A stretch of 64,000 nt of DNA from Microbacterium sp. lyk4-40-TSB-66 (lineage in GTDB: Bacteria; Actinomycetota; Actinomycetes; Actinomycetales; Microbacteriaceae), in the NCBI RefSeq assembly GCF_030209475.1, contig NZ_JARVRW010000004.1:310001-374000 (forward strand), written 5' to 3'. The notes beneath the pieces were generated by a model. That model made no database searches. It was not told the origin of the DNA and saw only the letters and a program-made list of their open reading frames with translations. Below, in pieces: positions 6,996 through 58,335 of the stretch (position 1 is the first letter of the stretch; every line of letters begins with the position of its first letter). The position numbers and the translations under genes were made by a program.

Positions 6996-7067
6996 CTCGG
7001 GGCGAGAGGGCTGCCCGGGACGGGAGGATGTCCCGGGACGGGAGGACTTTCCGGCACGGGAGGACGC
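6996..7067. repeat. Four tandem 18-bp G-rich units before ligA
   Basis: Four consecutive 18-bp units occupy this stretch. The two middle ones (7014-7031 and 7032-7049) differ only in their last bases and share CCCGGGACGGGAGGA; the outer two are diverged. The 321-bp gap between mnmA and the preferred ligA start holds this array, and otherwise only the ligA promoter box. No convincing gene was seen on either strand. The G-run character could allow strand slippage or a G-rich secondary structure. Confidence 0.8.
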
Positions 7068-7142
7068 CCATGTGGTCGGGTGTCCTCCGCTCCCCGTATC
7101 TCCTCCGTGGGGTCAGGGGTCTCGCACGACGGGCGACGGTGA

Positions 7143-10467: not shown

Positions 10468-12147
10468 TCAGTCGGACAGCAACTGGTCGCGCACCTGCCG
10501 CCGCAGGACTTTGCCGATGAGCGAGCGGGGGAGCTCCTCCACCACGACGATCCGTTTCGGCACCTTGTAGGGCGTCAGGATGCCGCGCGCGAAAGCGCGG
10601 ACGGCCTCGGCGTCGAAGGTGTCGGGGTCCGAGGCGACCACCGCCGCGACGACCTGCTCGCCGGAGTGCTCGTCGGGCAGTCCGACGACCGCGACATCGA
10701 TCACGGACGGGTGCTGACGCAACACGCTCTCGACCTCGGTGGGGGCGACGTTGAAGCCGCCCGTGATGATCAGCTCCTTGATGCGGTCCACGATGCGGAC
10801 GAAGCCCGCCTCGTCGATCGTGACGATGTCACCTGTGCGGAACCAGTCGTCGACGAACACGCTCGCGGTCTCTTCGGGCTTGCCGTAGTACCCGCGGAAC
10901 ACCTGTGGCCCGCGCACGAGCAGCTCGCCGCGCTCGACGTCGGTGTGCGGATCGTCGGGGTCGACGACGCGGCACTCTGTTCCCGGGAGGGGCAGTCCCA
11001 CCGTGCCCGCGACGCGGTTGTCGGCGACCGGGTTCGCCATCAGCACGGGGGAGCACTCACTGAGGCCGTATCCCTCGACGAGGAACCCGCCCGTGGCTTC
11101 CTCGAACGGAACGACGAGCTCGTGCGGCAGCGCCATGGCGCCGGAGATGGCGACGTCGGTGCCGGCGAGCGAGACACCTTTCTGCTGCGCCGCCGTCAGC
11201 AGGCGGTCGGCGATGGGCGGCACGAGGGGGAGGAACGTGGCCGGATGCTTCTTCGTGACGGCGAGCACGAGATCGGGGTCGAACTTCGGGAAGAGCACGA
11301 GACGCGCGCCCATCGACATCGCGAACGTGAGGCACAGGGTGAGGCCGTAGGCGTGGAACATGGGCAGGACCGCGTAGACCACGCATCCCTCACCGCGGAC
11401 GATCTGCGGGACCCAGGCCCGGGCTTGAGCCGCGTTCGCGAGGAGGTTCGCGTGGGTGAGCATCGCCCCCTTCGGCGTGCCCGTCGTGCCGCTGGTGTAC
11501 TGGATGATCGCGAGGTCGTCGGCCGCGGGGCGGGGATGCGACGCGGGAAGCGGCTCGTGACGGATGAGACCCTCCCAGTCGGTCGCGCCTTTCGTCTTCG
11601 CGTGCAGCGCCGATCGCGACTCTCGTGCTTTGGCGACGGGGAGTCTCAGGGCGAGGCGCGTCATCAGCGGCATCGCGCGGGTGACGTCGACCGAGACGAG
11701 CGTGTCGACGCGGAGGTCGGCCGGGAACTCCTGCACCGTCGCGACGACCTTGCTCCAGACGATCGCGTGCTTCGCGCCGTGGTCCTCGAACTGCTTGCGC
11801 AGTTCGCGCGGGGTGTAGAGCGGATTGTGTTCGACGACCACCGCGCCCAGGCGGAGGACGGCGTAGAACGCGACGATGTGCTGCGGACAGTTCGGCAACA
11901 CGATGGCGACGGGATCTCCCGCACGCACGCCGTGGGCTGCCAGCGCGGCGGCCGCGCACGCGATCTGTCGGGAGAGCTCGGCGTAGGACGTCTCTCGCCC
12001 GAAGAACTGCAGGGCCGGGGCGTCCGGATAGTCGCGCACCGAGGCGTCGACGATGTCGATGAGCGAACCGCTCTGCGGGGCCAGGTCTTCCGGCACCCCC
12101 GCGGCGTAACTCGTGGTCCAGGGTCGCGGCGGATCGAAGCTCGTCAC
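10468..12147 (-). CDS. fadD: Long-chain fatty-acid CoA ligase (AMP-forming)
   Basis: The 559-residue member of the ANL adenylating superfamily carries the P-loop YTSGTTGTPKG, the A5-type motif VEGYGLSECSP, FRTGDIVTID, and a C-terminal domain with the acylation lysine in LIGKVLRR. It would activate fatty acids to acyl-CoA for beta-oxidation or lipid synthesis. The GTG start at 12147 has TAGGCT (complement of 12154-12159) six bases upstream, a leaderless promoter. It is divergent from gatC. Exact chain-length preference cannot be read from sequence. Confidence 0.88.
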   Translation of the reverse strand: MTSFDPPRPWTTSYAAGVPEDLAPQSGSLIDIVDASVRDYPDAPALQFFGRETSYAELSRQIACAAAALAAHGVRAGDPVAIVLPNCPQHIVAFYAVLRLGAVVVEHNPLYTPRELRKQFEDHGAKHAIVWSKVVATVQEFPADLRVDTLVSVDVTRAMPLMTRLALRLPVAKARESRSALHAKTKGATDWEGLIRHEPLPASHPRPAADDLAIIQYTSGTTGTPKGAMLTHANLLANAAQARAWVPQIVRGEGCVVYAVLPMFHAYGLTLCLTFAMSMGARLVLFPKFDPDLVLAVTKKHPATFLPLVPPIADRLLTAAQQKGVSLAGTDVAISGAMALPHELVVPFEEATGGFLVEGYGLSECSPVLMANPVADNRVAGTVGLPLPGTECRVVDPDDPHTDVERGELLVRGPQVFRGYYGKPEETASVFVDDWFRTGDIVTIDEAGFVRIVDRIKELIITGGFNVAPTEVESVLRQHPSVIDVAVVGLPDEHSGEQVVAAVVASDPDTFDAEAVRAFARGILTPYKVPKRIVVVEELPRSLIGKVLRRQVRDQLLSD

Positions 12148-52212: not shown

Positions 52213-52461
52213 TCAGGCGAACTCGTCGCCCTCGTCGTAGCGGACCACCACGTCGCCCGCGGCATCCTGGGTCACGATGACCCCGGTGTCGAGCTCGGCG
52301 ACGGGGCGCCCCTCGAGGAACGTGAGCGTCCACCGCGGGGCGGGCGCGCTGAGTCCGTCGGGGTTCAGCGCCTCTTCGACAGCGGCGATCTGCGCGTGCA
52401 ACGCCTCGGGAACGGCCTTCGGCGGCTGCTCACGGGCGGTCCAACGGGTTCCGAGCTGCAT
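52213..52461 (-). CDS. Small hypothetical protein coupled to valS
   Basis: The 82-residue protein (WTAREQPPKAVPEALHAQIAAVEE, then WTLTFLEGRPVAELDTG and an acidic end) has no named family. Its ATG shares a base with the valS stop (TGATG), so it is translated in coupling with valS. Codon use matches valS. A role linked to the synthetase is possible but not shown. Confidence 0.75.
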   Translation of the reverse strand: MQLGTRWTAREQPPKAVPEALHAQIAAVEEALNPDGLSAPAPRWTLTFLEGRPVAELDTGVIVTQDAAGDVVVRYDEGDEFA

Positions 52462-55028
52462 CAGTCCTCCTGGGGTGCGAACACGATGTCGGTGACGGTG
52501 GTGGTCTCGCCCGGCGCGAACGAGATGGTCTCGATGCGACCGACGGCGCACAAATCTCCCTCAGCGAGGCGGAGCGCCTCGACGTGAGGGCTGGCGACCG
52601 TGAGCGAGGTGACGGCCGTCTTCTGCGAGGCCTTCGCCTCGGTCTTGGCGCGACGGATGCCGATGAGCGCGGCGCTCACCGCGGTGAGCACGGCCGGGTC
52701 GCCCTCGATGCCGAGGGGTTCGGGCCATGAGGCGGTGTGCACGGAGCCGTCCTCGAACCACGACCAGGTCTCTTCGGCGGCGAACGACAGTACGGGAGCG
52801 AACAGACGCACCAGGGTCGACAGGGCCGTGCGCAGCGCCAGGGCGGCGGAGGCCTGGCCGACGTCGGTCTGGTCGTATGCGCGCTCCTTGACCAGTTCGA
52901 GGTAGTCGTCGCAGAACGTCCAGAAGAACGACTCCGTGATCTCCAGTGCCCGCGCGTGGTCGTACGCCTCGAAGGCCGCGGTGGCGTCGCGCACCACGGC
53001 ATCCAGCGTGGCGAGCATCGACGAGTCGAGCGCGTGCGTCACCTCGGCGCCCTCGGGCACGGGGAACGACAGCACGAACTTTGCCGCGTTCAACAGCTTG
53101 ATCGCGAGGCGGCGACCGATCTTCACCTGGGTGGGGTTCTGCGGGTCGAACGCCGCGTCGGTGCCGAGGCGGCTCGAGGCCGACCAATAGCGCACCGCGT
53201 CGGAGCCGTGCTGCTTCAGGATGTCGGCGGGGGTGACCACGTTGCCCTTGGACTTCGACATCTTCTTGCGGTCGGGGTCGACGATGAAGCCCGAGATCGC
53301 GGCATCCGTCCACGGCGAGCGGTCGTCTTCGAGGGTGCTGCGCAGCATCGTCGAGAACAGCCACGTGCGGATGATGTCCTGGCCCTGCGGGCGCAGGTCG
53401 AACGGCGACACGAGGTTCCACAGCTCCTCGTCGCGCTGCCAGCCGCCGGCGAGCTGCGGGGTGAGCGAGGAGGTCGCCCACGTGTCGAGGATGTCGCGCT
53501 CGGCGTCGAAGCCGCCCGCCGCACCCCGCTGGTCTTCCGTGTAGCCCGGGGGCACGTCCACCGTCGGGTCGACGGGAAGGCTGGCGAGGTCGGGGGTCAG
53601 CACGCGGCCGTAGTCACGCTCCCCGTCATCGTCGAGGCCGTACCAGACGGGGATCGGCACGCCGAAGAAGCGCTGGCGCGAGACGAGCCAGTCGCCGGTG
53701 AGGCCGTTGGTCCAGTTCTCGAAGCGCACGCGCATGAAGTCGGGATGCCACGACATCTCGCGACCGAGCGACACGAGGCGCTCGCGCAGCTCGGCGTCGC
53801 GCGCGCCGTTGCGGATGTACCACTGGCGGGTCGACACGATCTCGAGGGGCCGGTCGCCCTTCTCGAAGAACTTCACGGGGTGGGTGAACGGCTTCGGGGC
53901 GCCTTCCATGGCGCCGGACTCCTGCAGGAGCTCGACGATGCGCTTCTTGGCGCTGAACACGGTCTTGCCCGCGAGCTCGCCGTACGCCGCCGTCGCGGCA
54001 TCCGTCACGATCACATCGGGGGCATCGGCCACGATTCGGCCGTCCTTGCCGATGATCGTGCGGTTGGGGAGGTCGAGCTCGCGCCACCAGATGATGTCGG
54101 TCACGTCGCCGAAGGTGCAGATCATGGCGATGCCCGATCCCTTGTCCTTCTGCGCGAGGGGGTGCGCGAGCACCGGCACCTCGACGTCGAAGAGGGGGGT
54201 GCGCACCGTCGTGCCGAACAACGGCTGGTAGCGCTCGTCGTCGGGGTTGGCCACGAGCGCCACGCACGCGGGCAGCAGCTCGGGGCGGGTCGTCTCGATG
54301 AACACGTCGCCCGAGCCGTCGGTCTTGGCGAAGCCCACGCGGTGGTACGCGGCGGGCTGATCGCGATCTTCGAGCTCGGCCTGGGCGATCGCGGAGCGGA
54401 AGTCGACGTCCCACAGCGTCGGTGCCATCGACTGGTACGCCTCGCCGCGCTCGATGTTGCGCAGGAACGCCAGCTGGCTCGTGCGGATGGAGTCGTCGGA
54501 GATCGTGCGGTAGGTCTGGGTCCAGTCGACGCTGAGACCGAGCTCGCGGAAGAGCTCCTCGAACTGCTTCTCGTCTTCGATCGTGAGCTGCTCGCACAGC
54601 TCGATGAAGTTGCGGCGGCTGATGGGCACCTGGTCGGCGGCCTTGCTGCTCTTGTTGTCGCCGCCCGCGAACGGCGGGGTGAAGTCGGCGTCGTAGGGGA
54701 GCGAGGGGTCGCACCGCACGCCGTAGTAGTTCTGCACGCGGCGCTCGGTCGGCAGGCCGTTGTCGTCCCAGCCCATCGGGTAGAACACCGTCTTGCCGCG
54801 CATCCGCTCGAAGCGCACCTTCACGTCGGTGTGCGTGAACGAGAACACGTGGCCGATGTGGAGGCTTCCGGATGCCGTCGGCGGCGGCGTGTCCACCGAG
54901 TACACGCCCTGACGGCCGAGCTCAGCGGCGCGCAGGCGGTCGAAGACGTACGTGCCGCGCTCGCGCCACGCGGCATCCCATTTCTGCTCGAGGCCTTCCA
55001 GCGCGGGTTTTTCCGGGATCGTGGCCAT
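52461..55028 (-). CDS. valS: Valyl-tRNA synthetase
   Basis: The 855-residue class I synthetase has the HIGH motif in GSLHIGHVFSFTH, an editing domain (about 190-320), KMSKS in DRKKMSKSKGNVVTP, an anticodon-binding helical domain and a short C-terminal region. It charges tRNA-Val and edits Thr-tRNA. The ATG at 55028 follows GAGGAGTACCGCC. The open frame continues far upstream through repeat DNA, but those codons are not protein-like and are excluded. No T-box is seen upstream, in contrast to ileS. Confidence 0.96.
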   Translation of the reverse strand: MATIPEKPALEGLEQKWDAAWRERGTYVFDRLRAAELGRQGVYSVDTPPPTASGSLHIGHVFSFTHTDVKVRFERMRGKTVFYPMGWDDNGLPTERRVQNYYGVRCDPSLPYDADFTPPFAGGDNKSSKAADQVPISRRNFIELCEQLTIEDEKQFEELFRELGLSVDWTQTYRTISDDSIRTSQLAFLRNIERGEAYQSMAPTLWDVDFRSAIAQAELEDRDQPAAYHRVGFAKTDGSGDVFIETTRPELLPACVALVANPDDERYQPLFGTTVRTPLFDVEVPVLAHPLAQKDKGSGIAMICTFGDVTDIIWWRELDLPNRTIIGKDGRIVADAPDVIVTDAATAAYGELAGKTVFSAKKRIVELLQESGAMEGAPKPFTHPVKFFEKGDRPLEIVSTRQWYIRNGARDAELRERLVSLGREMSWHPDFMRVRFENWTNGLTGDWLVSRQRFFGVPIPVWYGLDDDGERDYGRVLTPDLASLPVDPTVDVPPGYTEDQRGAAGGFDAERDILDTWATSSLTPQLAGGWQRDEELWNLVSPFDLRPQGQDIIRTWLFSTMLRSTLEDDRSPWTDAAISGFIVDPDRKKMSKSKGNVVTPADILKQHGSDAVRYWSASSRLGTDAAFDPQNPTQVKIGRRLAIKLLNAAKFVLSFPVPEGAEVTHALDSSMLATLDAVVRDATAAFEAYDHARALEITESFFWTFCDDYLELVKERAYDQTDVGQASAALALRTALSTLVRLFAPVLSFAAEETWSWFEDGSVHTASWPEPLGIEGDPAVLTAVSAALIGIRRAKTEAKASQKTAVTSLTVASPHVEALRLAEGDLCAVGRIETISFAPGETTTVTDIVFAPQED

Positions 55029-55140
55029 GGCGGTACTCCTCGAGCGATATGGGCGGCACTGTGTGAGCGTGCCTGATGGGGTGTGGCATCCACGATACCG
55101 GGGCCGGGGCGCGCGCGAGCGCGCGTCGCGCCGCACAGAC

Positions 55141-55204
55141 TCAGTGATTCGCGCAGGTTCAGCGCGACGGGGCGGATGCTGACTGAGGTTGGGCGGACTG
55201 CTGA
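55141..55204. repeat. Palindromic repeat A, GATTCGCGCA family
   Basis: TCAGTGATTCGCGCA on the left and a right arm ending GGGCGGACTGCTGA are imperfect complements; the centre is GGGGCGGATGC. The 394-bp gap between valS and the broken DUF559 gene holds repeats A and B and no other gene I can support. Confidence 0.8.
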
Positions 55205-55239
55205 CTTCGCGAACGACGGGAGTCACGTGCCGCGCAGTG

Positions 55240-55302
55240 TCAGGGATTCGCGCAATTTCAGTTGCCTGGGGCGGATGCTGGCTGAGATTGGGCGGACCGC
55301 TG
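55240..55302. repeat. Palindromic repeat B, GATTCGCGCA family
   Basis: It has the same plan as repeat A (TCAGGGATTCGCGCA, centre GGGGCGGATGC, right arm GGGCGGACCGCTGA) and starts 99 bases after it. It lies about 120 bp before the start of the broken DUF559 gene. Confidence 0.8.
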
Positions 55303-55422
55303 AGGTTGCGGAGGCGTGAGGTTGCGCCGCAGCGGACGGGCCGGCGGCGCCTCTCCTCCCCAGCGCGGTTCCTGTCCACAGGCTCATCTGCGCTGAGCTC
55401 TCGCGTCCTGGAGAGGGCGACG

Positions 55423-56270
55423 ATGACGCACATGGATGACGCCCTCGCCCGTGCTGTCGCGACGCGAACCGCTGAACTCGGAGGCGTCGTTCGCCCGACC
55501 CGTCTCATCCGCGAGGGGCACGGTCGGCTCGCATCTCCCAAGCGCTCGAACGAGGACTCCTGCTGAGGGTCAGGCGGGACTGGATCGCACTCCCGACAGC
55601 CGACGCGCATGTGGTCTCCGCCGCTCGAACGGGCGTCGTGCTGTCGTGCATCACCGCCGCCGAAAGGCGCGGGCTGTGGGTCGCCGCGAGGCCGGACAGG
55701 CCACATGTCGCGTATCCCGGCCGAGGAAGGGTTGACGGTCCTGCCGCCGTCGTGCGCTGGCAGCGGCCCATTGTCCCTCGGCATCCGGACCTGCTCGAAG
55801 ATGAGATCGAGAACATTCTGCTCACTGTCGCCTCGTGCCAGCCCTACGAGGCGGCTCGTGCGATCTGGGACTCCGCGCTGAACAAGAAGCTGGTCGATTT
55901 GGCGCACTTGCGCCGTCTGCCCTGGACCGGTGCTGCACGGCTGCTCGTTCGAGAGGCGTCGCCATGGGCCGACTCCGGTCTCGAAACATTCGTGATCATC
56001 CGGCTGCGGTGGATAGGCCTGCCCATCCGATCCCAGATCTGGATCTGCGGTCATCGCGTCGACTTCCTCATCGGAGAGCGACTCGTCTTCCAGGTCGACG
56101 GCGGACACCACGTTGGGGTGCAGCGCACGGAGGACATCCGCCACGACGCCGAATTGATGCTCTTGGGTTATCACGTCATCCGCGTGGGATACGAGCAGGT
56201 CATGAACCGCTGGCCCGAGGTGCAGGAGCAGATCATGCACGCCGTGGCGCAGGGGTTGCACAAGGCGTGA
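55423..56270 (+). pseudogene. Frameshifted AbiEi-like/DUF559 nuclease-fold gene
   Basis: The N-terminal frame (ATG 55423, after GGAGAGGG) encodes DALARAVATRTAELGGVVRPTRLIREGHGR, then runs out. The next frame continues ARISQALERGLLLRVRRDWIAL, completing a winged-helix AbiEi-like antitoxin domain. The C-terminal part is a DUF559/Vsr-like PD-(D/E)xK fold: RVDFLIGERLVFQVDGG, RTEDIRHDAELMLLGYHVIRVGYEQVM. One missing base near 55525-55527 explains the break. The usual Glu of the EVDG motif is Gln here. Palindromes of one family flank the gene on both sides. Confidence 0.82.
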
Positions 56271-56295
56271 GTGGTCCGCCCGACGTGGCGCACAC

Positions 56296-56359
56296 TCAGT
56301 GATTCGCACATTCTCACCAAGGTGGGGTGGATGCCGACGGAGGTTCCGCAAATCCGAGA
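56296..56359. repeat. Palindromic repeat C, GATTCGCGCA family
   Basis: TCAGTGATTCGCACA on the left, centre GGGGTGGATGCCGAC, right arm GGAGGTTCCGCAAATC. It starts 26 bases after the DUF559 stop. The 451-bp gap up to the substrate-binding protein gene holds repeats C, D and a partial E. Confidence 0.78.
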
Positions 56360-56416
56360 GGTTATGCGGGCCGCGAGCGAGACGCCGGCCACGCTGGCTC
56401 GGCAATCCGCACAAAC

Positions 56417-56480
56417 TCACCGATTCGCGCGACCTCAGCGCTAAGGGGCGGATGCCGACGGAGGTTGCGCGGATCACTGC
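56417..56480. repeat. Palindromic repeat D, GATTCGCGCA family
   Basis: This is the best-conserved copy: left arm GATTCGCGCGACCTCAGC, centre GGGGCGGATGCCGAC, right arm GAGGTTGCGCGGATCAC, which is nearly complementary to the left arm. Starts 121 bases after repeat C. Confidence 0.82.
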
Positions 56481-56535
56481 ACTTGTGAGTGCCCGTGTGG
56501 ACGTTGCCCCGCCAGCAAAATCCGTGATGGCACAC

Positions 56536-56585
56536 TTTCGATCCGTGGGGGGCGGATGCCGACTCAGCGCACGCGAATCGCTGAC
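56536..56585. repeat. Partial repeat E, GATTCGCGCA family
   Basis: It contains the GGGGCGGATGCCGACTCAGC centre and a right arm CACGCGAATCGCTGAC, but the left arm is degenerate. After it, TAGGCT at about 56683 is a plausible -10 for the oligopeptide transporter operon. Confidence 0.55.
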
Positions 56586-56721
56586 TGGCTGCGACGCGAC
56601 GCCGGGCACCGGCGCGGGCGCGCGTTCGCCGAGGGCGAGCGGGCGGCGCCGGGGTTTCCGCACCGGGTCCAGGAACGCGGGTAGGCTGGAGCTTCCCCAT
56701 CGAGATTTCCGAGGTCTCTCC

Positions 56722-58335
56722 ATGCCTTCTGTGCATACCCGCCGCGTGCTGACGGCCGTCGCCGTGGCCGCCGTCGCCGCCCTCTCCCTCTCCGCGTGCG
56801 CGGGGTCCGACCCCGAGGCCTCCGGCGACGGCGAGATCGTCTGGGCGATCGAAGGCGCCAATCTCTCCGCCGGGCACATGGACCCGCAGACCAGCCAACT
56901 CGACGTATCGGCCATGGTGCAGCGCGCGGTGCTCGATTCGCTCGTCTACCAGGAAGCCGACGGCACGTTCTCGCCGTGGCTCGCGGAGTCGTGGGACGTC
57001 GAGGACGACGGCGCGAGCTACCTGTTCCGCCTGCGCACCGACGTCACCTTCCACGACGGAACCCCCTTCGACGCCGCCGCGGTGAAGGCGAACTTCGACC
57101 GGATCGCCGATCCCGACACCGCGTCGGCGCAGGCGGCATCCATGCTCGGAGGCGACCTGTACGCCGGCACCGACGTCGTCGACGACCACACCGTGCGCGT
57201 GCGCTTCACGCAGCCCTATGCGCCGTTCCTCCAGGCCGCCAGCACGTCGCTGCTCGGGTTCTACTCGCCGGCCGTGCTCGAGACCAAGGCCGATCAGCTC
57301 AAGGCCGGCGGCCCGGGCATCACGGTCGGCACCGGCCCGTTCGAGCTGACCGAATACACGCCCGACCAGGACATCGTCTACACCCGCAACGCCGACTACA
57401 CATGGGGCCCCGACGGCTCCGGCGCGCCGACCTTCGAGACGCTGCGCGTCGACATCCTGCCCGAGGCGTCGGTGCGTGTCGGCGCACTGTCGAGCGGCCA
57501 GGCCGATGTCGTGACGAACCTGCCGCCGAACCTCGTGAGCCAGGTGCCCGCCGACGACACCGTCGAGTCGCTCGAATACCCCGGTCTTCCCTACTCGCTG
57601 TTCCTCAACGAGAAGAACGGCGTCTTCGCCGATCAGAAGGTGCGCCAGGCCTTCACCCGTGCCATCGACGTCGACACCGCGGTGCAGGAGATCTTCTTCG
57701 GCCAGTACCCGCGTGCGTGGAGCATCCTCGGCTCCACCACCCCCGGTTACGACGCGAGCCTCGAGAACTCGTGGCCCTTCGACCCGTCGGCGGCAGGTGC
57801 CCTGCTCGATGAGGCGGGCTGGACCGGACGGGATGCCGACGGCATCCGTACCAAGGACGGTCAGCGCCTCACGGCCCGTTGGATCGCCTGGACCCCGGTG
57901 CCCGACGATCGCGCCGCGCTCGCGAACGCCGTGCAGAGCGACCTCAAGGCGGTCGGCTTCGACCTGCAGCGCGAGGTGCTCGAACCCGGCGCGTACAACG
58001 AGCAGTACGGCCCGAAGACCTTCGACGTCACCGACTGGGGCTTTTCGGGCGTCGACGCCGACCTGCTGCAGAGCCACCTCGCGACCGACGGATTCCAGAA
58101 CGCCTCCCAGGTGAGCGATCCCGCGCTCGACGCGCTGCTGGAACAGGGCGCCTCGACCACCGACACCGACGCCCGGGCCGCCGTCTACGCCCAGGTGCAG
58201 CAGTGGAACGCCGAGCACGCCGCCATCGTGCCGCTGTACAGCCCCGCTCTGATCAGCGCCGTGCGTCCCGACGTCAGCGGCCTGACGTTCGACCTATACG
58301 GTCGTCCGCTCTTCGCCACCGCGTCGGTCGGCTGA
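56722..58335 (+). CDS. Peptide ABC transporter substrate-binding lipoprotein
   Basis: The 537-residue family 5 solute-binding protein has a signal peptide with lipobox LSAC (Cys26) and the signature WLAESWDVEDDGASYLFRLRTDVTFHDGTPF, with NADYTWGPDG and DWGFSGVDADLLQSH further on. It captures peptides or similar solutes outside the membrane. The ATG has a leader; TAGGCT lies about 35 bases upstream. It is the first gene of a four-gene importer with two permeases and a fused double ATPase. Confidence 0.92.
   Translation: MPSVHTRRVLTAVAVAAVAALSLSACAGSDPEASGDGEIVWAIEGANLSAGHMDPQTSQLDVSAMVQRAVLDSLVYQEADGTFSPWLAESWDVEDDGASYLFRLRTDVTFHDGTPFDAAAVKANFDRIADPDTASAQAASMLGGDLYAGTDVVDDHTVRVRFTQPYAPFLQAASTSLLGFYSPAVLETKADQLKAGGPGITVGTGPFELTEYTPDQDIVYTRNADYTWGPDGSGAPTFETLRVDILPEASVRVGALSSGQADVVTNLPPNLVSQVPADDTVESLEYPGLPYSLFLNEKNGVFADQKVRQAFTRAIDVDTAVQEIFFGQYPRAWSILGSTTPGYDASLENSWPFDPSAAGALLDEAGWTGRDADGIRTKDGQRLTARWIAWTPVPDDRAALANAVQSDLKAVGFDLQREVLEPGAYNEQYGPKTFDVTDWGFSGVDADLLQSHLATDGFQNASQVSDPALDALLEQGASTTDTDARAAVYAQVQQWNAEHAAIVPLYSPALISAVRPDVSGLTFDLYGRPLFATASVG

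Follow-up and report, generated by a model that had tools for sequence, protein, structure and literature searches.

A gene encoding a two-domain protein, with an AbiEi-like N-terminal half and a Vsr-type nuclease domain at its C terminus, is bracketed on both sides by copies of its own palindromic repeat. The bracketing, its clade specificity and the dispersal of further copies are shown by sequence. On balance, and by a modest margin, we favour the reading that the protein and its cognate palindrome form a unit similar to REP/RAYT with an unrelated enzyme; the binding, cutting and spreading that this reading entails are inferred.

The window, the whole 64-kb stretch of DNA that was analysed (G000:C13:310001-374000), contains the following features, given in window coordinates.

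52461-55028, minus strand: valS, the left neighbour; NCBIfam valine--tRNA ligase match above cut-off; marks the orthologous site in 11 of 11 bearers
55133-55210, plus strand: palindromic repeat copy 1, upstream of the gene; profile score 56 bits, with a covariance-model match
55232-55310, plus strand: palindromic repeat copy 2, upstream of the gene; profile score 59 bits; the best covariance-model site in the genome
55423-55566, plus strand: N-terminal AbiEi-like piece of the gene; located by three-frame translation beside the intact orthologue L039
55611-56270, plus strand: open reading frame of 219 aa with the remaining middle part and the DUF559/Vsr-like nuclease part; Pfam DUF559 match, 2e-8
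56288-56365, plus strand: palindromic repeat copy 3, downstream of the gene; profile score 51 bits
56409-56487, plus strand: palindromic repeat copy 4, downstream of the gene; profile score 60 bits
56515-56586, plus strand: palindromic repeat copy 5, partial or decayed, downstream of the gene; profile score 32 bits; missing from the covariance-model matches
56722-58335, plus strand: ABC transporter substrate-binding protein (SBP_bac_5), the right neighbour; Pfam SBP_bac_5 match, 1e-80

The five copies lie within 55133-56586, two upstream and three downstream, with none inside the DUF559 reading frame, and in the profile search all five score best in the gene's orientation. Copy 2 was itself among the copies used to build the covariance model. 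An earlier note, made from the letters of the window only, had claimed four clear copies and one partial copy on the two sides of the gene and none elsewhere in the window. Both claims held: the four clear copies score 51-60 bits and the partial one 32 bits, and no other copy is found in the 64 kb, where the best off-locus profile match reaches 6.8 bits. In the rest of the genome, by contrast, the covariance model finds between 11 and 13 more sites, the number varying with the threshold. Twenty shuffled windows yield zero profile matches at E<=1e-3, which, together with the absence of copies elsewhere in the window, rules out chance or a window artefact. A known RNA element is likewise ruled out as the identity of the repeats, with no Rfam match at E<=1 across 54800-56900.

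The palindrome is about 79 bp long, not 64 bp as the earlier note had it, and is composed of nested arms, GCGCAnnnTCAG then GATnCGCGCAnnnTCAG, a GGGGCGGATGCC-like centre, and then the reverse complements. In an alignment of 69 copies from several genomes, limited to copies above 35 bits, the symmetric register pairs 60% of positions, compared with 16-33% in 12 other registers tried, and the column pairs 19-67 and 20-66 covary. Tandem arrays of the repeat have a period of roughly 100-120 bp. Single copies fold weakly as single strands (z -2.1 to 0). The stems of the window family show an excess of G.T over A.C (151 v 67) that is not seen across repeat families (89 v 79), so single-strand recognition is unsupported in general, and a general single-strand hairpin signal was rejected on these two grounds.

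The window's own gene copy is broken. Its AbiEi-like part, starting from 55423, and its nuclease reading frame are in different frames, with the break near 55525-55545, while 10 orthologues are open through this region and have an intact length of mostly 279 aa. The earlier note's inference that the present copy is inactivated thus held in the form of a frameshift. The nuclease reading frame has a dN/dS of 0.12 between G000 and G062, and the break may therefore be recent or an assembly error.

The AlphaFold2 model of the protein is confident (pLDDT 93.4, pTM 0.86), and its structure matches, obtained also from a Foldseek search, divide it in two. The AbiEi antitoxin of Streptococcus agalactiae (6y8q_A) aligns with residues 4-177 (Z 9.2, rmsd 4.6, 173 residues); residues 180-276 align with NGO0050 (Z 13.1, rmsd 1.8, 89 residues), the homing endonuclease I-Bth0305I (3r3p_A; Z 13.1, rmsd 2.4, 94 residues) and Vsr (1cw0_A; Z 10.3, rmsd 2.2, 96 residues). 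Residues E185, D211, D223, H227 and H238 are invariant in all 65 sequences of the structure alignment, which took in 65 of the 80 named loci described below; we take them to be the EDxHD residues, an inference made without a residue-by-residue alignment. The C-terminal part scores above the Pfam cut-off for DUF559 and below the cut-off for REase_MTES_1575. The protein is thus predicted by the model to consist of an AbiEi-like N-terminal half with a winged helix and a C-terminal nuclease domain of the Vsr/EDxHD type, and the assignment of an AbiEi-like/DUF559 gene with a Vsr fold, also made in the earlier note, held by Pfam and by structure comparison of the predicted model.

Other identities for the protein were considered and rejected. 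A known defence system was set aside, as PADLOC gives weak matches alone (best 8e-4, to AbiEi) and NCBIfam gives one irrelevant weak match. Phage or plasmid cargo was set aside as well, the only relatives on mobile elements at E<=1e-5 being three plasmid records (Tsukamurella, 29-34%) and one phage record (28%).

Across 247 genomes of the genus, the 11 closest homologues (73-100%, counting the window's broken copy) each have the window palindrome on both sides. Upstream, the nearest copy ends about 270-300 bp ahead of the aligned 219-aa region, a gap that contains the N-terminal 60 or so residues of the protein; downstream, the nearest copy begins 10-101 bp past that region. Full gene-side copies all follow the gene's orientation in 9 of the 11 orthologues. 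For a single gene-side copy in each of G052 and G008 the minus strand gives the higher score, and a half-copy in G072 scores equally on the two strands. All 11 bearers occupy one orthologous site beside valS and form one clade of the gene tree (support 98/99), and the 11 bracketed orthologues therefore count as one origin. The bracketing in these genomes has been inherited largely vertically at a single site, which weakens the independence of the evidence.

The same site reveals that gene and repeats come and go together. The corresponding clade of the valS tree (support 98/99) comprises 23 species, 11 with gene and repeats and 12 without the gene. At the valS site, 10 of these 12 have no repeat, G069 has a solo repeat, and G015 is not scorable because the site ends at a contig edge and cannot serve as an empty site; all 12 have repeat matches elsewhere in the genome. 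The bearer label requires at least four changes on well-supported branches of the valS tree. In particular, G092 carries the unit and its sister G071 does not (support 100/100), and G008 carries it and G054 does not, with similar flanks. The sequences thus show that, beside valS, the gene and its repeats are present together or absent together. The bearers' gene tree is roughly congruent with the valS tree, and G092 alone groups differently. Of 16 species examined outside the clade, 4 have a homologue (60-65%) at the corresponding valS site, where the window palindrome is absent; for three of these homologues (L061, L049 and L062) the flanks yield a repeat pair of the locus itself, scoring 30, 41 and 62.

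Purifying selection acts on the gene, with a median dN/dS of 0.16 (range 0.08-0.22) over 36 pairs of 9 of the 11 orthologues, G072 and G203 being excluded for length. For 54 of 55 pairs, the gene shows a greater DNA distance than does a part of valS (0.279 against 0.059 for G000-G006, for example), the exception being G057-G233; valS, the sole neighbour compared, evolves slowly.

Copies of the palindrome are also dispersed through the genomes. In the window's genome, the covariance model finds 15 distinct sites at E<=1e-6, of which four, including the top three, lie beside the DUF559 gene; the model was built partly from gene-side copies, and their high rank is partly built in. The sequence profile missed two weak sites, C13:281257 (one of the 15) and C13:233626, which are supported by the covariance model only. 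The earlier note had stated that repeats equally common genome-wide would refute a link with the gene. This condition is half fulfilled: the repeats are dispersed, yet 4 of the 15 strong sites in the window's genome adjoin a single gene. The other bearers have 20 to 139 two-strand matches per genome and the gene-less clade members 3 to 70, with 70 in G243 and 63 in G054. A palindrome is usually matched on both strands, so that these counts can exceed the number of copies by up to two, and scoring stopped at 150 candidates per genome.

Most dispersed clusters are intergenic. Fifty-eight are clear of called genes and lie in convergent (27), tandem (25) or divergent (6) gaps; 14 more overlap a called gene and three lie at an edge. 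None of 66 regions around dispersed copies contains a homologue by tblastn. Within a genome, dispersed copies are similar to those beside the gene: the own-genome residual is positive in 10 of 11 genomes (permutation p 0.0002, without removal of kinship). Only the window's genome, in which the gene is broken, departs from this. Genomes with an intact gene are richer in copies (median 56.5 v 22, one-sided p 0.007, kinship uncorrected). A kinship-corrected comparison rests on five supported pairs, of which one to three are informative and none goes in the opposite direction; with so few pairs it is not significant. An origin of the repeats from RAYT is ruled out, as Y1_Tnp (PF01797) is found in 0 of 23 repeat-bearing genomes and in 5 of 14 control genomes.

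The association extends to the wider protein family, where other homologue clades carry their own, different palindromes, a finding that goes beyond the earlier note. Our sample consisted of 80 named loci out of 292 relatives matched by profile, mostly from Microbacterium, with some from Agromyces and other Actinomycetota; 77 entered the flank test, three lacking full flanks. The direct-repeat score between upstream and downstream flanks is at least 30 in 53 of the 77 homologues (mean 44.9), compared with 0 of 65 neighbour genes (mean 15.4; Mann-Whitney p 1e-20) and 1 of 64 in a stricter control restricted to genes flanked on each side by a gap of 80 bp or more. The enrichment that the earlier note had proposed to look for beside intact two-domain homologues is therefore present both in the 11 of 11 close orthologues and in this wider set. 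Flanks compared between different loci reach 30 in only 18 of 606 comparisons, so the repeats are clade-specific.

Among the 53 positive loci, the upstream copies of 48 are palindromic at z>3, and 24 repeat families can be distinguished. Counted by protein cluster, 25 of 36 have at least one positive member and 19 are positive throughout. Palindrome length is typically 75-105 bp; a median of 98 bp separates the upstream copy from the start codon, and a median of 9 bp lies between the stop codon and the downstream copy. Direct orientation prevails over inverted (mean scores 44.9 and 32.2 across homologues), with the direct score higher in 44 of the positives, the inverted higher in six and three tied. 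The motif GGATGCC recurs in 16 of the 53 loci, against 0.7 by shuffling. GGAGGAGAT-like arms or a GGATGCC centre are common to many families, and fewer than 24 independent origins may therefore lie behind them. The remaining 24 of the 77 homologues score below 30 and were left out of the palindrome and co-divergence tests. They include four Agromyces loci, of which two, L238 and L289, still show paired palindromes by eye. Two of the three Tsukamurella plasmid relatives were examined (32-34% identity), and neither has a repeat pair.

Repeat and protein diverge together. The repeat is shared in 15 of 15 pairs of homologues at protein identity of at least 80%, in 79% of 34 pairs at 70-80%, in 42% of 26 pairs at 65-70%, in 7% of 124 pairs at 60-65%, and in 0-1% below 60%. 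By Mantel correlation, repeat similarity tracks the N-terminal 95 residues (r 0.20, p 0.0005, partial 0.20) in preference to the C-terminal part (r 0.07, p 0.09, partial 0.04). The set comprised 50 loci, L252, L254 and L298 being excluded for an in-frame stop.

Dispersal of other families was searched in three genomes. In the window's genome, a second family surrounds a paralogue at C3:12447-13106, with its four best copies at 12071, 13133, 13312 and 13420, on both sides of the gene, and is also dispersed elsewhere, with full-length copies at 71-81%. For a third family, two identical copies bracket the gene in L285's genome and six more are dispersed at 82-87%; in L240's genome the gene is bracketed by two copies at 96-97%, and the dispersed copies comprise three longer ones at 79-86% and two short matches. 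Nine of the 12 dispersed copies of the second and third families are intergenic, and three overlap a crudely called gene.

We propose that a unit consists of at least one palindrome upstream and at least one downstream of the gene, mostly in the same orientation, with others elsewhere, mostly between genes. The AbiEi-like N-terminal half would read the palindrome. We regard this recognition as likely, because AbiEi proteins bind inverted repeats and because repeat divergence follows the N-terminal part; it is inferred, without binding data. The fused Vsr-type nuclease, with its invariant residues, would nick or cut the palindrome, which we consider its most likely activity, again by inference and without cleavage data. 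When such cuts are repaired, the palindrome, or the unit as a whole, may be copied to another site, by analogy with the spreading of REPs that is ascribed to RAYT enzymes, and this copying would give rise to the bracketing, the tandem arrays and the dispersed copies. No movement has been observed, and on this inferred last step we find the case as easily doubted as believed. Several observations stand against the model as a whole: repeats are still found in all 12 clade genomes that lack the gene, some of which are copy-rich; 24 of 77 homologues fall below the threshold; and no homologue turned up in the 66 regions around dispersed copies. The earlier note had called a repeat-processing nuclease conceivable. 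That overall interpretation is supported, with processing of the palindrome by the protein remaining an inference.

The parallel with REP and RAYT (TnpA-REP, 'REPtron'), likewise drawn in the earlier note, held in four respects: the gene is bracketed on both sides by its own palindromes, further copies are dispersed between genes in clusters, repeat and protein co-diverge, and the gene evolves faster than its neighbour valS. It failed for the enzyme family, which here is a Vsr-fold nuclease with an AbiEi-like half instead of an HUH/Y1 tyrosine enzyme, and mostly for orientation. REP/RAYT loci have two flanking repeats in inverted orientation and a GT(A/G)G head before the palindrome (PMC2817692). 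The present flanking copies are mostly direct, their palindromes, typically 75-105 bp, have nested arms, and the consensus of the 69 copies, which covers the window family only, contains no GT(A/G)G tetranucleotide.

The protein shares its C-terminal nuclease fold and conserved acidic and histidine residues with Vsr and the EDxHD homing endonucleases (I-Bth0305I), and differs from them in its AbiEi-like N-terminal half, its clade-specific palindromes and its occurrence as a free-standing chromosomal gene. It resembles the AbiEi antitoxin of the AbiE type IV toxin-antitoxin systems in the fold of residues 4-177 and in that AbiEi proteins bind inverted repeats. Unlike in AbiE, the window neighbours are valS and a substrate-binding protein; no AbiEii nucleotidyltransferase toxin is among them, and a nuclease domain is fused instead. 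At the other ten loci, neighbouring reading frames were grouped by similarity only.

The main rival explanation, which remains possible, treats the palindromes as operators through which the AbiEi-like half would repress its own gene; the dispersed copies would be a regulon or by-products, cutting would be irrelevant to spread, and the nuclease would serve some other purpose. In its favour are the AbiEi fold of the N-terminal half, the autoregulation of the AbiEi of Streptococcus agalactiae and of Rv2827c through inverted repeats (PMC7319586), the position of the upstream copy a median of 98 bp ahead of the start codon, and the tracking of repeat similarity by the N-terminal part. Against it, a matching copy directly follows the stop codon, only 6 of the 58 non-overlapping dispersed clusters lie in divergent gaps, which places most of them outside divergent promoter regions, and the acidic and histidine residues of the nuclease domain are invariant. 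The operator reading thus leaves the copy after the stop codon and the dispersed multi-copy arrays unexplained.

Homing, in which the nuclease would cut alleles without the unit, such as the empty gap beside valS, and repair would insert it, with the palindromes as the cut site or as marking or protecting ends, appears unlikely. It is favoured by one of the two nearest nuclease folds being that of the homing endonuclease I-Bth0305I, by the alternation of presence and absence among close relatives at a fixed site (11 bearers, 10 empty sites, one solo repeat and one unscorable), by the presence of the unit in G092 and its absence in the sister G071, by the similar flanks of G008 and G054 with and without the unit, and by the different placement of G092 in the gene and valS trees. 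Against it, the bearers' gene tree, G092 aside, is roughly congruent with that of valS, as under vertical descent with losses, and the gene-less dispersed copies are left unexplained.

That the repeats are ordinary dispersed elements spread by other machinery, with the genes merely lying in repeat-rich gaps or carrying repeats as passengers, can claim the copies in gene-less species, the many copy sites without a homologue and the lack of a demonstrated mechanism, but is very unlikely given that 24 repeat families bracket one protein family while 0 of 65 neighbour genes are so bracketed, that the repeats co-diverge with the protein, that no Y1 transposase occurs in the 23 genomes, and that, of the 11 scorable gene-less species of the clade, 10 are free of repeats at the orthologous site and the other carries a solo repeat, though all have matches elsewhere.

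Within the repeat-nuclease reading, which we continue to prefer, a bolder version would make the AbiEi-Vsr fusion nucleases a second, independently evolved class of bacterial repeat-spreading enzymes, each recognising one palindrome family and spreading it; there would be numerous separate pairings in Microbacterium and neighbouring genera, two or more of them in the window's genome. We would argue for this version no more readily than against it. The earlier note had called the system undescribed, and our search of the open-access literature, partial in coverage, turned up nothing on palindromes associated with DUF559 or AbiEi-DUF559 genes; DUF559 and REase_MTES_1575 are the formal Pfam domain families of the C-terminal part, and no repeat association is reported for them in that literature. 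To our knowledge, no system pairs an AbiEi-Vsr enzyme with cognate palindromes, and no enzyme family other than the HUH-type RAYT is known to be tied to dispersed palindromes, which many bacterial genomes contain. As neither the literature searched nor any system known to us contains such a pairing, we judge it new in kind, with REP/RAYT as an existing functional analogue.

If the preferred reading is true, a palindrome-bracketed nuclease of unrelated fold would mean that such bracketing had more than one evolutionary origin. How the repeats originate and spread could then be tested directly with natural matched and mismatched protein-palindrome pairs, and the 24 palindrome families, together with their proteins, are available as matched pairs. 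A likely role would also follow for the DUF559 subfamily. Where we have seen members of this subfamily annotated at present, they are described only as AbiEi antitoxin-like or as being of unknown function.

The window's genome encodes a third DUF559 paralogue (L009, G000:C10:395415-396083; 37%), which is flanked on both sides by matching palindromes with GTGCACAACGGCGG arms and a direct score of 47. Because this paralogue is also bracketed by a matching palindrome, the genome may have three repeat-nuclease pairs, the third of which is inferred from the flanking palindromes alone. The second palindrome family, whose cognate paralogue is C3:12447-13106 of the same genome (G000), has a copy inside the window at 7040-7106 (76%, E 1e-7), positioned between two ORFs that both lie on the plus strand.

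Dispersed repeats at four loci (L168, L178, L186 and L195) apparently occupy one orthologous site in four genomes, as judged by gene layout, and one of the four genomes is gene-less. This apparently shared site hints that a part of the dispersed copies could be old.

In-frame stops are present in three of the 80 named AbiEi-DUF559 homologues (L252, L254 and L298), and decayed gene copies therefore occur.

The leader immediately 5′ of valS (window 55029-55100) is strongly conserved in these species (L205-L216; CTCCTCGAGCGATAT..GTGCCTGA), and an Rfam search of the window stretch returned no match. In the gap upstream of valS, one species without the gene (G069, locus L206) has a solo repeat, possibly a remnant of the kind that recombination between flanking direct repeats could leave. 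The empty site of a second species (G071, locus L207) contains a different palindrome, GTGTCCACGACACC...GGTGTCGTGGACACC, in the gap where relatives of G071 have the gene and repeats.

The protein of L233, from a record titled Planococcus (JASDDH010000009.1), is 100% identical to that of L055, from a genome of the window's genus (G130); the Planococcus name appears to be wrong.
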